Below are positions 5,793 through 56,381 of a DNA stretch of 64,000 nucleotides, piece by piece. The stretch is from positions 1 to 64,000 of the forward strand of contig JAJFKW010000004.1 in the NCBI GenBank assembly GCA_021773015.1, in the 5' to 3' direction. The notes below the pieces were generated by a model. It was not told the origin of the DNA and did no database searches. It saw nothing but the letters and a program-made list of their open reading frames with translations. The stretch's first letter is position 1. Each line of letters starts with the position of its first letter. The position numbers and the translations under genes are program-made. The DNA is from Woeseia sp. (GTDB lineage Bacteria; Pseudomonadota; Gammaproteobacteria; Steroidobacterales; Woeseiaceae).

Positions 5793-7082
5793 TTATGGGT
5801 TCATATACTCTTTGAACGAAATCGACTCTGTGGTGCAGATACCATTTTCGGTAATCCAGTCGACAGCCTGCTCTTCCAGCACCATTGGCTCGAATTGCGC
5901 CATGATCTGGGGATTGCTCATGTAGTTTGCAACCATCTCGTCAGCATTTTCGTAACCGCTGCACAGCTCTTCGACTTTAGATCGCAGTTTTTCCTGATCT
6001 AGCACGATATTGTTGTCTTCAATCAGTTGGCGTATCAATAGACTCAGCTGAACCCTTCGATCCGCGCCCTCTGCAAAATTTTCAATGGGCGGCGCCTGAT
6101 CATGATCCTCCGTGCCCATACGACGCATCGCTTCGTGCTGCATAGCATGCATTTCCTGCTGCTTCAGCGAATTTGGCACTTCAATGGAGTTGGTTTCCAA
6201 GAGGCCGGTTAGCGCTTGGTCTTTTATGTCGTTGACCGTTTTTTGATTTGCCTCGCGCCGCATGTTGTCCAATACATCGGAACGAAGCTGCTCGAGACCG
6301 CCCTCGGTTACGCCATAGAGCTCCGCGAGTGAATCGTCCAGCGGCGGCAATTCCTCTTCTTCAACCCGATGTACTTTGATTGAAAAATCGACCTTTTTCC
6401 CCTTTAGGTCTTCCGCTTGATAGTCCTTAGGAAACTTCACCTTGAACGACTTCTCTTGCTCCGCCTTGACGCCAAAGAGCGCCTTTTCAAAGTCGGGTAA
6501 CATCGAACCCTGGCCAAGTATGACTGGCACTTCAGTTCCCTGTCCTCCAGAAATCGGTTCATCTTTGATGCGACCATCAAAATCTACGATTACTCGATCG
6601 CCTTTCGCACTCTCCCGAGCAACGGCATTCCAGGTGGCTCGCTGCTTACGCAAATTCATAATCATGTCTTCGCTGTCTTCGTCGCCGATCTCAACTTCAG
6701 GTTTCTTGACCTTAATTTTCTCGAGATTCTTGAGCTGCACCTCAGGTAAAACGTCGAAGGTCGCGACAAACGCAAAGTCGCTACCATTTTCGGCAACTTC
6801 GGGCTCGATCGTGGGCTGCGCCACCGGCTGCAAATTTTCTTGCGCGATGGCGTCGCTGTAGCTCTTGCTCATCAACTCGGACAACACTTCCTGGCGAACT
6901 TGAACGCCATAGTGCTTGCGGACCACCGTCGGTGGTACCTTGCCAGGCCGAAATCCCTTAATTTTGACCGTCCGGCCAACGGACTTCAGCCGAGTGTCGA
7001 CTTCTTTTTCTACTCGTTCGGCCGGCAGTTCAACTCGCATCTTGCGCTCGAGTTTCCCGGTCGATTCCACTTTGACCAACAT
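5793..7082 (-). CDS. tig: Trigger factor
   Basis: Ribosome-associated chaperone with peptidyl-prolyl isomerase activity that meets nascent chains at the exit tunnel. The ribosome-binding signature GFRPGKVP is near residue 45, followed by an FKBP-type domain ([12 protein letters not shown]) and a long helical C-terminal chaperone domain. An ATG at 7082 preceded by GAGGGG gives 429 residues starting [15 protein letters not shown], matching family N-termini; an upstream in-frame start would add 12 unrelated residues. It is the first gene of the proteostasis run, just downstream of tRNA-Leu. Confidence 0.95.
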
Positions 7083-7178
7083 TCTATTGTTCCCCTCAGC
7101 GTCGACACACGCGATCACGGCCTATCGACAACGTCTAAATGCTTTTATATTTCAATCAATTATATGTCCAGTGAATAC

Positions 7179-7264
<86 letters not shown>

Positions 7265-7415
7265 ATTGAGATCGACTCTTTGTTCAACCGGCAATTATAG
7301 CGCGATTTATACGCTTGCTAACAAGAAAAGATTTGCTAATGTTGGGCAGCAACGCTGATCGTTGGGAGGCAGGAATTGAACTAGTGAGCCCGTTAGATAC
7401 GCAAATTTGTCATAC

Positions 7416-7763
7416 AATCAAAGATAAATCCGCACCCAATTCGCCTCTGTTCTTAATTCTCAGCGTGCCAGTCTCATGCGAATTGATCTTTAGTAGGCTA
7501 GGTGGAAGTGCATATCTGCCAATCCACTAAAGATAAATCCGCACCCAATTCGCCCAAGTTCTTAGTTATCAATGTGCCAGCCCGATGCGTATTGATCTTT
7601 AGTGACTCAGGTGGAAGTGCAAATCTGCTAATCCACTAAAGATAAATCCGCACCCAATTCGCCCAAGTTCTTAGTTATCAATGTGCCAGCCCGATGCGAA
7701 TTGATCTTTAGTGACTCAGGTGGAAGTGCAAATCTGCCAATCCACTAAAGATAAATCCGCACC
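7416..7763 (-). repeat. 109-bp tandem repeat array A between tRNA-Leu and tRNA-Lys
   Basis: Units begin at 7416, 7525, 7634 and 7743, exactly 109 bases apart. The second and third are almost identical; the first has diverged; the fourth is only the first ~21 bases. Each junction holds an imperfect inverted repeat: GCGAATTGATCTTTAGTG, a 29-base loop with GGTGGAAGTGCAAATCTGCC, then CACTAAAGATAAATCCGC, for example 7587-7604 against 7634-7651. These could fold as hairpins in the tRNA precursor. No open reading frame fits. Related copies lie at 7953-8191, 55818-56034 and 1-13. Confidence 0.9.
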
Positions 7764-7799
7764 TGACTATTGCAAGGTCTTCGTCGATGCGGGCGGATT
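7743..7799 (-). repeat. 57-bp array tail next to tRNA-Lys
   Basis: From the last CACTAAAG of array A to the tRNA-Lys CCA end is exactly 57 bases, the same distance as from 8171 to tRNA-His. Both tails end in GATGCGGGCGGATTTGG, whose GCGGATTT pairs with AAATCCGC at the start of the tail. The middle bases differ between the two copies, which suggests that the ends and the spacing are what is conserved. Confidence 0.7.
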
Positions 7800-7875
7800 T
7801 GGTGGGCCCTCGGGGGCTCGAACCCCGGACCAAGAGATTAAGAGTCTCCTGCTCTACCAACTGAGCTAAAGGCCC
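7800..7875 (-). tRNA. tRNA-Lys (CTT)
   Basis: A 76-base cloverleaf with CCA encoded (TGG at 7800-7802), acceptor GGGCCTT/GAGGGCCC-type pairing with one mismatch-like wobble, loop CTCTTAA giving anticodon CTT, and a GGTTCGAGCCC T-arm. It lies between the two 109-bp arrays. Confidence 0.93.
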
Positions 7876-7889
7876 AATCCGTCATATTT

Positions 7890-7952
7890 AATTCCAATTC
7901 GCCTCTGCAATTAATAGATGCAGCGTCGGCATTTGCGCATCGATATTCATCG
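7890..7952 (-). repeat. Diverged partial 109-bp unit
   Basis: Just upstream of array B, CCAATTCGCCTCTG matches the first unit of array A exactly and the following ~50 bases align loosely (CAGCGT, CAT, ATTCATCGCACTAAAG). It reads as a shortened, decayed unit between tRNA-Lys and the first clear unit at 7953. Confidence 0.45.
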
Positions 7953-8227
7953 CACTAAAGATAAGTCCGCACCCAATTCGCCCAAGTTCTTAAATATCAA
8001 CGTATCAGTCTGATGCGAATTGATCTTTAGTGGGCTAGGTGGAAGCGCATATCTGCCAATCCACTAAGGATAAATCCGCGTCCAATTTGCCCAAGTTCTC
8101 AACTATCAATGTGCCAGTCCGATGCGAATTGATCTTTAGTCGGCTAGGTGGAAGCGCTAACCAGCTAATCCACTAAAGATAAATCCGCTCCCACCCATGT
8201 CGCGATTACCAGCGATGCGGGCGGATT
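7953..8227 (-). repeat. 109-bp tandem repeat array B between tRNA-Lys and tRNA-His
   Basis: Units begin at 7953, 8062 and 8171, again exactly 109 bases apart, with more base changes between units than in array A (loop GGTGGAAGCGCATATCTGCC in the first, GGTGGAAGCGCTAACCAGCT in the second). The third is only the opening 18 bases, followed by a tail that ends GATGCGGGCGGATTTGG at the tRNA-His CCA end. The same inverted arms as in array A are present at each junction. Confidence 0.88.
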
Positions 8228-8304
8228 TGGGGTGGACGATGGGACTCGAACCCACGACGACCGGGATCACAACCCGGGGCTCTACCAACTGAGCTACGCC
8301 CACC
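8228..8304 (-). tRNA. tRNA-His (GTG)
   Basis: Cloverleaf with CCA encoded (TGG at 8228-8230), discriminator C73 opposite an encoded G-1 (position 8304), anticodon GTG in the loop TTGTGAT, and a GGTTCGAGTCC T-arm. The G-1:C73 pair is the histidine identity mark. Its 5' flank is duplicated in the three 68-bp units that follow. Confidence 0.94.
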
Positions 8305-8504
8305 ATTTTATTCGATTTCTAGTTCTCAACCCGAGGCCTACCCTGTCGCTTCGCGACCCCGCTGCGCCCACCATTTTGTTCGATTTCTAGTTCACAACCC
8401 GGGACCTACCCTGTCGCTTCGCGACCCCGCTACGCCCACCATTTTGTTCGATTTCTAGTTCTCAACCCGAGGCCTACCCTGTCGCTTCGCGACCCCGCTA
8501 CGCC
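8301..8504 (-). repeat. Three 68-bp tandem units resembling a tRNA-His 5' half
   Basis: Units start at 8301, 8369 and 8437, exactly 68 bases each. On the minus strand each (with the preceding bases) begins GTGGGCGTAGC, identical to the tRNA-His 5' end. Then comes a small perfect hairpin GTCGC-GAA-GCGAC where the D-loop should be, then GTAG..CCCGGGTTGTGA or the variant CTCGGGTTGAGA, matching the tRNA through the anticodon, then about 20 bases equal to the 5' flank of tRNA-His. The 3' half of the tRNA is absent. They look like copies made by duplication of the tRNA 5' region. Confidence 0.8.
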
Positions 8505-8648
8505 CAACATTTTTTTACAATCTATTTCATATCCTGACGAACATTGGTTCATCAGGACCGCGTTCATCAACCACCGTGTAACCGCTACCGAATAATAACT
8601 AGAGCGCGTTGCGATGGCCTTTCCTGCCGTCAATACGGGACCCGATAT

Positions 8649-8725
<77 letters not shown>

Positions 8726-8753
8726 ACTGATTAAATCCTGCAAACCCCGAATT

Positions 8754-8830
8754 TGGTCGGGGCAGAGAGATTCGAACTCCCGACCCTCTGCTCCCAAAGC
8801 AGATGCGCTACCAGACTGCGCCATGCCCCG
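8754..8830 (-). tRNA. tRNA-Pro (TGG)
   Basis: A 77-base cloverleaf with CCA encoded (TGG at 8754-8756), acceptor CGGGGCA/TGCCCCG, loop TTTGGGA giving anticodon TGG, and T-arm AGTTCGAATCT. It is the first tRNA of the operon, 28 bases from tRNA-Arg. Confidence 0.95.
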
Positions 8831-8875
8831 ATTTCAAACCCTAAACTCACGCGACCCAGGTCCCGCGGGGGCACG

Positions 8876-8904
8876 ATGATACGGGCCGCCCACAAGGCAG
8901 TCAA
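8876..8904 (-). promoter_or_regulatory. Sigma-70 promoter of the tRNA operon
   Basis: On the minus strand TTGACT (8899-8904), a 17-base spacer and TATCAT (8876-8881), followed by the GC-rich stretch CGTGCCCCCGCGGG. A GC-rich discriminator is typical of stable-RNA promoters under stringent control. The predicted start near 8869 leaves a leader of about 38 bases before tRNA-Pro. The site lies in the divergent gap shared with the cyclophilin gene. Confidence 0.7.
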
Positions 8905-8992
8905 TCAAGATTATCGCTTTCGCCGCTTTACTCCGCTGTCGGCTTTGGTATCGTCCCCAAACTACACACTTTCAATGAGGACTAAGCCAATC

Positions 8993-9568
8993 ATGAAGGC
9001 CAATTTCTTTTTGTTGCTATGGGTATTCGCGACCTCAATTGCCTTAGCCGACGACAAGGTACCTGCTCACCCATATATCCTATTCGAGACCACCGAAGGC
9101 AACATCGTGCTTGAACTAGATGGTGCACGAGCACCAATTACGGTGAAAAACTTCCTCGAATTGGTCGATTCCGGATTTTACGATGGCACCGTTTTTCACC
9201 GTGTCATTCCGGATTTCATGATCCAAGGCGGTGGTCACACGCCGAATTTGAAAGGCAAGGAGACAGACGGCTCAATTATCAATGAATCGGGTAACGGTTT
9301 GGAAAATGTCCGGGGCAGCATCGCGATGGCGCGTGAAACTGACCCACATTCAGCCAATGCGCAATTCTTCATTAACGTGGTAGACAATATTGCGCTGGAC
9401 CCGCGGCCTGACAGATGGGGCTACGCGGTATTCGGCAATGTCATTCAAGGCATGGAAGTGGTCGATATGATCGTTTCTGCACGCGCCGGTCCGGGCGGTC
9501 AATTCGAAAAGAATGTACCCATCGTTCCCATCGTTCTAAAGAAGGCGTCGCGACATAACTTTGAGTAG
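8993..9568 (+). CDS. Periplasmic peptidyl-prolyl cis-trans isomerase, cyclophilin type
   Basis: Cyclophilin that isomerises X-Pro bonds in exported proteins. The N-terminus MKANFFLLLWVFATSIALA is a signal peptide with an ALA cleavage site. The mature domain carries FHRVIPDFMIQGG and AMAR...SANAQFFINV, the catalytic Arg, Phe and Gln positions of the family. At 191 residues it matches E. coli PpiA-type proteins. The ATG at 8993 has TGAGGA about ten bases upstream; an in-frame ATG at 8975 would add six residues before the signal peptide. It is a lone plus-strand gene, divergent from the tRNA operon and convergent with miaE. PpiA is the likely counterpart, but PpiB-like exported paralogues exist. 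Confidence 0.9.
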   Translation: MKANFFLLLWVFATSIALADDKVPAHPYILFETTEGNIVLELDGARAPITVKNFLELVDSGFYDGTVFHRVIPDFMIQGGGHTPNLKGKETDGSIINESGNGLENVRGSIAMARETDPHSANAQFFINVVDNIALDPRPDRWGYAVFGNVIQGMEVVDMIVSARAGPGGQFEKNVPIVPIVLKKASRHNFE

Positions 9569-55817: not shown

Positions 55818-56034
55818 CCGAACTGCACTAGACCGTACGATGAATAACATTTGTATAAGTTTTGACTCTGATGAAAGCGCAAATTCTTCACTCAACTAAT
55901 GGTCAATTCGCACCTTGAGGCCCCAGTATTAATTGTCCGTGCTGCAATAGTCCGTAAGATGAACGCCATCTATTTTTAATTTAATTCAGGTGGAAGCGCA
56001 ATTTTTGCACTTCACTAAAGATCAATTCGCACCT
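55818..56034 (+). repeat. Two diverged copies of the dispersed repeat
   Basis: Two direct copies of about 97 bases, 119 bases apart: 55818-55915 and 55937-56033. Both run from CCG..CTGCA.TAG.CCGTA.GATGAA to TCAATTCGCACC. The second contains TCAGGTGGAAGCGCAA and CACTTCACTAAAGATC, matching the loop and arm of the tRNA-array units (TCAGGTGGAAGTGCAA; CACTAAAGAT). The element ends 18 bases before the DUF1820 stop. Confidence 0.75.
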
Positions 56035-56051
56035 GGCAATCGCTCTCATGT

Positions 56052-56381
56052 CTATTTTGAGGGCGAATTGGGGGTGTACATCGGGACAGGAAATTGCGTC
56101 ACGTTGCCCTCAATTTTGGAGATTTTGCTGGTGCCCTCCTTATCGACCTCGTCGATTCGTAAAATTGAGTGCATCGGCAAATAGGTGCGTTTAACGCCTT
56201 CGAACTCTGATTTTATTTTTTCCTCCGAAGGATCTACAACGACTGATGTCCGCTCGCCGAAAACTAACTGTTCGACTTCCACAAAACCAAAAAGCGAGCC
56301 ATGACCAACCGATCTAGCATAAATCTCGTAAATTTGGCCCTGATTCATAAAGGCCACTTTGTATAATTTCTTTGCGCTCAT
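56052..56381 (-). CDS. DUF1820 family protein
   Basis: A 109-residue small soluble protein: LYKVAFMNQGQIYEIYARSVGHGSLFGFVEVEQLVFGE...FEGVKRTYLPMHSILRIDEVDKEG. It is a conserved gammaproteobacterial family of unknown function. The ATG at 56381 has GGAA seven bases upstream. It lies between the repeat pair and a TagH-like gene on the other strand. Confidence 0.88.
   Translation of the reverse strand: MSAKKLYKVAFMNQGQIYEIYARSVGHGSLFGFVEVEQLVFGERTSVVVDPSEEKIKSEFEGVKRTYLPMHSILRIDEVDKEGTSKISKIEGNVTQFPVPMYTPNSPSK

Follow-up and report, generated by a model that had tools for sequence, protein, structure and literature searches.

A dispersed palindromic element beside tRNA genes of Woeseia and its part in two exact 109-bp tandem arrays

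Small palindromic repeats are common in bacteria, and how families of them spread where no transposase has been recognised is, to our knowledge, an open question. In the rtT repeats of the E. coli tyrT operon, tandem units each carry a tRNA 3' end, and the product is a small RNA or a basic peptide. At att duplications of tRNA-integrating elements a partial tRNA 3' end, beginning in the T-loop, is repeated downstream of the intact gene. REPs are 20–40 bp long and most fall into superfamilies tagged GTAG or CGTC, those tagged CGTC apparently being without a dedicated transposase according to the authors (available part of PMC3733652). RAYT enzymes belong to IS200/IS605, the known members of which generate no larger target duplications (available part of PMC2817692). 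The main text of a 2025 REP survey (PMC12306157) mentions neither Woeseia nor RAYT. Among the literature matches listed for tRNA-linked repeats, rtT, REPs and Woeseia repeats, a coverage with few subscription papers, there was no description of the family reported here.

The window is a stretch of 64,000 nucleotides from a 4.84-Mb Woeseia genome in 6 contigs. Its tRNA-Pro, -Arg, -His, -Lys and -Leu genes form a cluster wholly on the minus strand, followed by ORFs that, from their translations, we take to be tig, clpP, clpX, lon and hupB. The original prediction had placed arrays with an exact 109-bp period, despite base divergence, in this cluster. TRF bore this out with two arrays that vary by substitutions (92% matches in array 1, 84% in array 2) and have 0% indels at period 109 (Table 1). 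Five of the proposed unit starts (7525, 7634, 7743, 7953 and 8171) carry CACTAAAGAT exactly, whereas the start at 8062 differs from it at one position (CACTAAGGAT) and a diverged AATCAAAGAT opens the unit at 7416. The arrays occupy most of both spacers around tRNA-Lys rather than filling them (344 of 536 nt and 241 of 352 nt by TRF). That they were inserted between the tRNA genes fits the comparison with relatives, as 13 of the 22 listed His-Lys loci, the own genome included, have spacers of only 9–66 nt. The inverted arms ATCTTTAGTG and CACTAAAGAT, 29 bases apart, were confirmed. Such arms arise where two copies of a shorter element, which we call E, meet head to head in opposite orientation, and the supposed loop is the spacer between the two copies. 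The 109-bp unit of array 1 is made up of the 58-bp E and 51 bp that hold an orphan stem arm, ATCTTTAGTG, the 29-bp spacer and a junction base.

Table 1. Arrays, tRNA genes and copies of element E in the window.
Feature	Position	Strand	Basis
Array 1, 109-bp units, 3.2 copies, tRNA-Lys/tRNA-Leu spacer	7420..7763	.	TRF, repeat analysis
Array 2, 109-bp units, 2.2 copies, tRNA-His/tRNA-Lys spacer	7953..8193	.	TRF, repeat analysis
tRNA-Leu (TAG)	7179..7263	-	tRNA prediction
tRNA-Lys (CTT)	7800..7875	-	tRNA prediction
tRNA-His (GTG)	8228..8303	-	tRNA prediction
tRNA-Arg (TCT)	8649..8725	-	tRNA prediction
tRNA-Pro (TGG)	8754..8830	-	tRNA prediction
Element E, diverged, array 1	7438..7495	-	covariance search
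Element E, array 1	7547..7604	-	covariance search
Element E, array 1	7656..7713	-	covariance search
Element E, GG end flush with CCA end of minus-strand tRNA-Lys	7743..7799	+	
Element E, array 2	7975..8032	-	covariance search
Element E, array 2	8084..8141	-	covariance search
Element E, GG end flush with CCA end of tRNA-His	8171..8227	+	
Element E, solitary, away from tRNA genes	56013..56069	+	

The parallel drawn earlier with rtT stands insofar as these are tandem repeats inside what would be a single tRNA operon. It is loose for the window arrays, whose 109-bp units hold no tRNA 3' end, and closer for other copies of E, which adjoin duplicated tRNA 3' ends. Unlike rtT, with which it shares neither sequence nor period, E is a genome-wide, multi-gene family. 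We infer that the cluster is transcribed together with the arrays as one operon. On the minus strand of 7000–9000 no terminator-like site was found, and the three promoter-like matches there, one of them just before tRNA-Leu, were not in excess over shuffles. Only the tRNAs reached the Rfam gathering cut-off, and E matched no known Rfam RNA; weak matches to eukaryotic miRNA and scaRNA families and to tmRNA, far below the cut-off, were dismissed.

Two other features of the cluster were noted. A 68-bp array (8293–8513, 3.2 copies), separate from the 109-bp arrays, lies upstream of tRNA-His, its unit combining the opening bases of tRNA-His with a GTCGCGAAGCGAC hairpin and with a segment that resembles the tRNA-His anticodon arm. 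It had no further match in the own genome, and pseudo-tRNA-His pieces with a similar hairpin occur at loci L156 and L169. Between array 1 and tRNA-Leu, at ~7352–7375 on the minus strand, a tRNA-3'-end-like fragment (GTTCAATTCCTGCCTCCCA) was seen by eye, possibly what is left of a further duplicated tRNA end.

A genome search with one 109-bp unit matched many sites through one common motif. In E, the conserved CACTAAAGAT is followed by a 7–8-bp stem arm (e.g., C(or A)AATCCGC), ~38 variable bases, the complementary arm and then GG; the core of a 20-copy alignment has the same order, with CACTAAAGATC and a 7-bp stem (AATCCGC and variants). Length was 56–58 bp in 127 of 131 copies, and the tag CACTAAAGAT was exact in 101 of 140, with 39 variants including CAATAAATGT in five and CAGTAAACGT in three (copies that, as in most of our multi-copy counts, come mostly from loci retrieved because they bear E). 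Like REPs, BIMEs and REPINs, E is a short, dispersed, mostly intergenic imperfect palindrome with no coding capacity, has an unpaired conserved tag at one end and occurs in inverted pairs, and its pairs are intergenic dimers of the kind by which REPs and BIMEs are recognised. It differs from REPs and BIMEs in being 56–58 rather than 20–40 bp long, in its ~38-nt variable interior, in a tag of CACTAAAGAT rather than GTAG or CGTC, in a stem whose sequence is free to vary, in its strong tRNA linkage and in the duplicated host sequence at one end. The CGTC-tagged REPs are likewise palindromic and, according to their authors, apparently lack a dedicated transposase, but in the available part of PMC3733652 their loops are mostly 4–5 and their tag is another.

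The stem of E covaries. In the 20-copy alignment 98.6% of 140 cells were paired and four of the seven pairs had changed on both sides. The covariation score was reached by none of 500 shuffles, versions slid along the sequence gave at most 55.7% pairing, and one of five measures, that of further pair types, was not above shuffles. Our E detectors require a near-perfect stem, except in a set of 113 copies selected without regard to the three central pairs. In compiling it, 130 motif matches that had no suitable second arm, among them redundant loci and half elements, were set aside. In that set 332 of 339 central cells were Watson-Crick, three were G-T and four mismatched, and there were eight fully complementary stem versions. 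The eighth pair, outside the seven, was C-G in 115 of 131 copies and A-T in 12. The small number of G-T cells suggests a constraint acting on the DNA, or the copying of one arm from the other. The original prediction expected compensatory changes in the arms around the 29 bases; those found are in the 7–8-bp stem inside each E and not in these arms, which are the nearly invariant motif in inverse orientation.

The loop of E folded no better than shuffled sequence and had no inner structure. Its complementarity and identity to either flank were within the shuffle range, with one exception: direct identity to the 5' flank was slightly raised (5.38 compared with 5.11 in shuffles, shuffle maximum 5.24). 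The idea of the loop as a target guide was rejected, as it had no general match to the flanks beyond shuffles. Both tRNA spacers of the window folded better than shuffles (z −2.89 and −3.14), which is expected anyway from arrays of inverted elements.

The original prediction implied further copies in the genome, and these are present: the covariance model gave 51 matches at an E-value ≤ 1 and 44 at ≤ 0.01, at 25 loci. Copy counts are lower bounds, with 150 (own genome) or 50 (family) first-look candidates scored per genome. Twelve of the 25 loci were ≤300 bp from a tRNA, tmRNA or 5S gene, where 0.13 was expected, the model (R1) having been built from 20 own-genome copies of which 13 are beside a tRNA or 5S gene and several come from the window cluster. 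By this measure, which took in tRNAs, tmRNA and, of the rRNA genes, a single 5S gene, the other 13 loci were away from stable-RNA genes. Twelve of the genome's 37 tRNA genes have E within 300 bp. A scan of contigs with an exact pattern that contains no tRNA letters gave 69 matches in 63 stretches, and 11 of the matches were ≤300 bp from a tRNA or tmRNA gene, compared with ~2 expected from the 2.8% of the same loci's bases that are near such genes. Many of the 63 stretches are labelled Woeseiaceae or Woeseia; the remainder come from unplaced proteobacterial, gammaproteobacterial and 'Chromatiales' MAGs and from 'Bacterium MnTg02'.

In the family, evidently Woeseiaceae, 39 of 107 genomes had at least one match at threshold. 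Comparative loci were retrieved for the best-matching 30 of 68 genomes, in the second retrieval likewise. By eye, E is present in three of the 22 listed His-Lys spacers (the own genome, L166 and L172). The own genus is a single genome, and movement between close strains was not observed. In three genomes (L034, L075/L145 and L110) E was seen between ORFs inside the S10 operon, the flanking ORFs presumably being rpsJ and rplC. A viral carrier of E was rejected, with 0 matches to two E patterns in IMG/VR and no match in a phage BLAST of array 1. Plasmid BLAST of 7416–8227 returned 201 records, the best 10 of which cover the tRNA-Lys stretch alone.

E meets tRNA genes in a particular way. Among 142 distinct copies there were 15 flush contacts (≤1 nt) with mature tRNA ends, 12 at the 3' CCA and three at 5' ends, and in all 15 it was the GG end, never the motif end, that touched the tRNA. 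At the position of the eighth pair 13 copies have T, and 11 of these read like a tRNA 3' end backwards (one is a partial tRNA copy), so that the last A of the tRNA itself takes part in the pairing of E; the other two, L073 and L128, are outside this tRNA-like set. At L080, L082 and L086 a head-to-head pair occupies the whole His-Lys spacer, from the CCA to the start of tRNA-Lys, and by eye L166 and L172 have a like arrangement.

Neighbouring copies of E formed 16 head-to-head pairs, seven of them with no gap, compared with two tail-to-tail and 20 tandem pairs. Both tail-to-tail pairs span a tRNA gene. At L101 and L104, the flanks of gap-free pairs were seen by eye to be inverted repeats of each other for ~10–20 bp outwards. 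Of 85 copies without a tRNA or tmRNA gene within 500 bp, 34 were between tandem genes, 23 between convergent and three between divergent genes, 16 were in crude ORFs and nine at an edge. Between tandem protein genes there was no strand preference (17 copies in the same orientation, 17 in the opposite).

Host sequence is often duplicated beside the GG end. In 115 copies (16 of 131 were dropped for short flanks) we searched the 600 bases that precede E for matches to the 60 that follow it. At a score ≥36 a match was found in 40 of the 115 and the other 75 were below threshold, whereas controls gave 0 of 100 for the upstream sequence of unrelated copies, 2 of 115 for inverted sequence and 16 of 111 for downstream sequence, the last attributed collectively, rather than one by one, to arrays and partial tRNA copies. 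The match began at the first or second base after the stem in 24 of the 40, at the second base in 22 of these. At least five of the 40 have other causes (L080, L082 and L086 reflect the likeness of two tRNAs, and two at L085 run into a neighbouring E), and in 10 another E is inside the stretch. The duplicated stretch was mostly 20–90 bp long, and unconserved sequence often separated it from the motif. In the window (L001) the 51-bp stretch after one E matches the stretch before E over its full length. Duplicated gene ends included those of tRNA-Lys(TTT) and tRNA-Asn, partial ones of tRNA-Leu(CAG) and tRNA-Met, the tmRNA end at L064 and protein-coding ORF ends at L079, L119 and L087; the tRNA and tmRNA 3' ends begin in the T-loop.

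The end of a gene that looks to us like glnS allowed sites with and without E to be compared at 11 loci (one, L250, on one side only). Genomes G020 and G009 are without E there (in G009 as read from overlapping matches). In G027 the gene end is followed by 14 bases, E and a 43-bp repeat of the gene end (41 of 43 identical). Four congeners of G027 (G022, G024, G026 and G028) also have E at this site, with variously decayed duplicates. The E-less relatives fit, on the sequences compared, an insertion accompanied by duplication, and the presence of E in five species of one genus implies that some copies are of old date or have arisen repeatedly. This site and a tmRNA comparison both disfavour slippage onto a pre-existing E. 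In the latter, what follows the duplicated tmRNA end in G026 looks, by eye, like what directly follows tmRNA in G027, the insert in G026 carrying a different hairpin. Downstream of tmRNA, L193 (G026) and L209 (G028) have a second hairpin family, CTCTCAACTTGCGC ... GGGCGCAAGTG then GTTC, with an E-like layout; it ends at the duplicated tmRNA 3' end in G026 and is absent in G027 of the same genus. Long GC-rich repeats opening with GGTTCACAAAA or GTTCGACAAAACGCG were also seen, at L062 and downstream of tmRNA in several relatives (e.g., L198, L210 and L200), and they look like a tRNA T-arm with a large insert.

At the level of sequence, then, these comparisons establish E as a family with a covarying stem, enrichment at stable-RNA genes, contact by its GG end, head-to-head pairing and, beside many copies, duplications. 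We think it probable, though well short of certain, that the arrays are the local tandem amplification of E, a dispersed, non-coding, palindromic and REP/BIME-like mobile element of Woeseiaceae. E would be, or would once have been, non-autonomous mobile DNA that inserts near gene ends with a preference for tRNA, tmRNA and rRNA genes and leaves a direct target duplication, mostly of 20–90 bp. A locus of the form D-E-D' could then become D-E-D-E-D' by unequal exchange between the D copies, and such exchange would account for the exact 109-bp period (51 bp of D and 58 bp of E) with substitutions and no indels. Among the roles first proposed, the data favour that of a selfish tRNA-linked repeat.

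A bolder version, which we put forward only tentatively and regard as rather doubtful, would make E the hairpin that terminates a miniature mobile element of a new class. Its GG end would dock exactly on mature tRNA ends and on the 3' ends of other genes, and a copying mechanism would leave a long, variable target duplication and restore the host gene end each time. Template switching at the hairpin or tRNA-primed copying might, speculatively, be involved, and either would give a fixed GG junction; we know of no description of such a mechanism in bacteria. Against the reading of E as a mobile element, the presumed insert lacks a conserved left end, which sets it apart from ordinary transposons. 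No recurring gene accompanies E: among 1422 ORFs at 73 loci, each of the 25 largest clusters covered at most four loci and, by eye, included no transposase or integrase look-alike. One neighbour at one locus (L081) is presumably an IS3-type transposase.

It is also conceivable, but unlikely, that E functions as RNA within tRNA, tmRNA and rRNA precursors, with its hairpin, abutting the CCA or the first base, and a long-range AUCUUUAGUG/CACUAAAGAU pairing guiding or protecting 3' and 5' maturation. Such a role would suit the flush position at mature tRNA ends, the covarying stem with the last A of the tRNA included in the CCA cases, the folding of the window spacers beyond shuffles and a transcribed strand without a terminator-like site. 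A required RNA role is made less likely by the presence of E in so few His-Lys spacers, the even split of orientations between tandem genes and a loop whose folding does not exceed that of shuffles, and an essential one in RNA processing by the patchy distribution, with 68 of the 107 family genomes lacking a match at threshold. That 13 of the own genome's 25 loci are away from the stable-RNA genes considered, and that just three of 339 stem cells are G-T, is likewise at odds with a precursor element.

We consider it improbable that E is an ordinary REP, BIME or REPIN moved by a RAYT (Y1) transposase, even though it is dispersed, mostly intergenic, palindromic and found in inverted pairs, and Y1_Tnp matches occur in 66 of the 107 family genomes (29 of 39 with E and 37 of 68 others; Fisher p 0.06). 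The own genome, which has the highest E count in the family search, has no Y1_Tnp match, nor do 10 of the 39 E-bearing genomes, and no E was detected within ~1.5 kb on each side of any of the 30 Y1 loci retrieved, so a RAYT origin is weakened in the own genome, in the family and by proximity. The tag of E is neither of the two that define REPs in the available part of PMC3733652, and the larger duplications beside E are not a product of known IS200/IS605 members as covered in the available part of PMC2817692.

That copies of E are remnants of tRNA-targeting integrative elements (att sites of a phage, island or satellite, with the duplicated tRNA 3' end as attL/attR) is highly improbable: E does share with such elements direct repeats of 3' ends that open in the T-loop (seen for tRNA-Lys, -Asn, -Leu and -Met and for tmRNA), but its insert is only ~70–200 bp, the duplicated cores differ by gene (tRNAs, tmRNA, glnS-like and others), have no common att core and would hardly be usable by one integrase, no recurring integrase was seen nearby in the 25 largest ORF clusters, and neither the IMG/VR pattern search nor, for array 1, the phage search gave a match.

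If the arrays are local amplifications of a mobile E, the family would provide a natural route to rtT-like arrays. The junctions of E, with their exact contact with mature tRNAs and a host duplication that starts from a fixed end, make models of its insertion testable. In a lineage that is common in marine sediment, the E family remodels the spacers of tRNA and tmRNA genes and, in three genomes, that of a ribosomal-protein operon.
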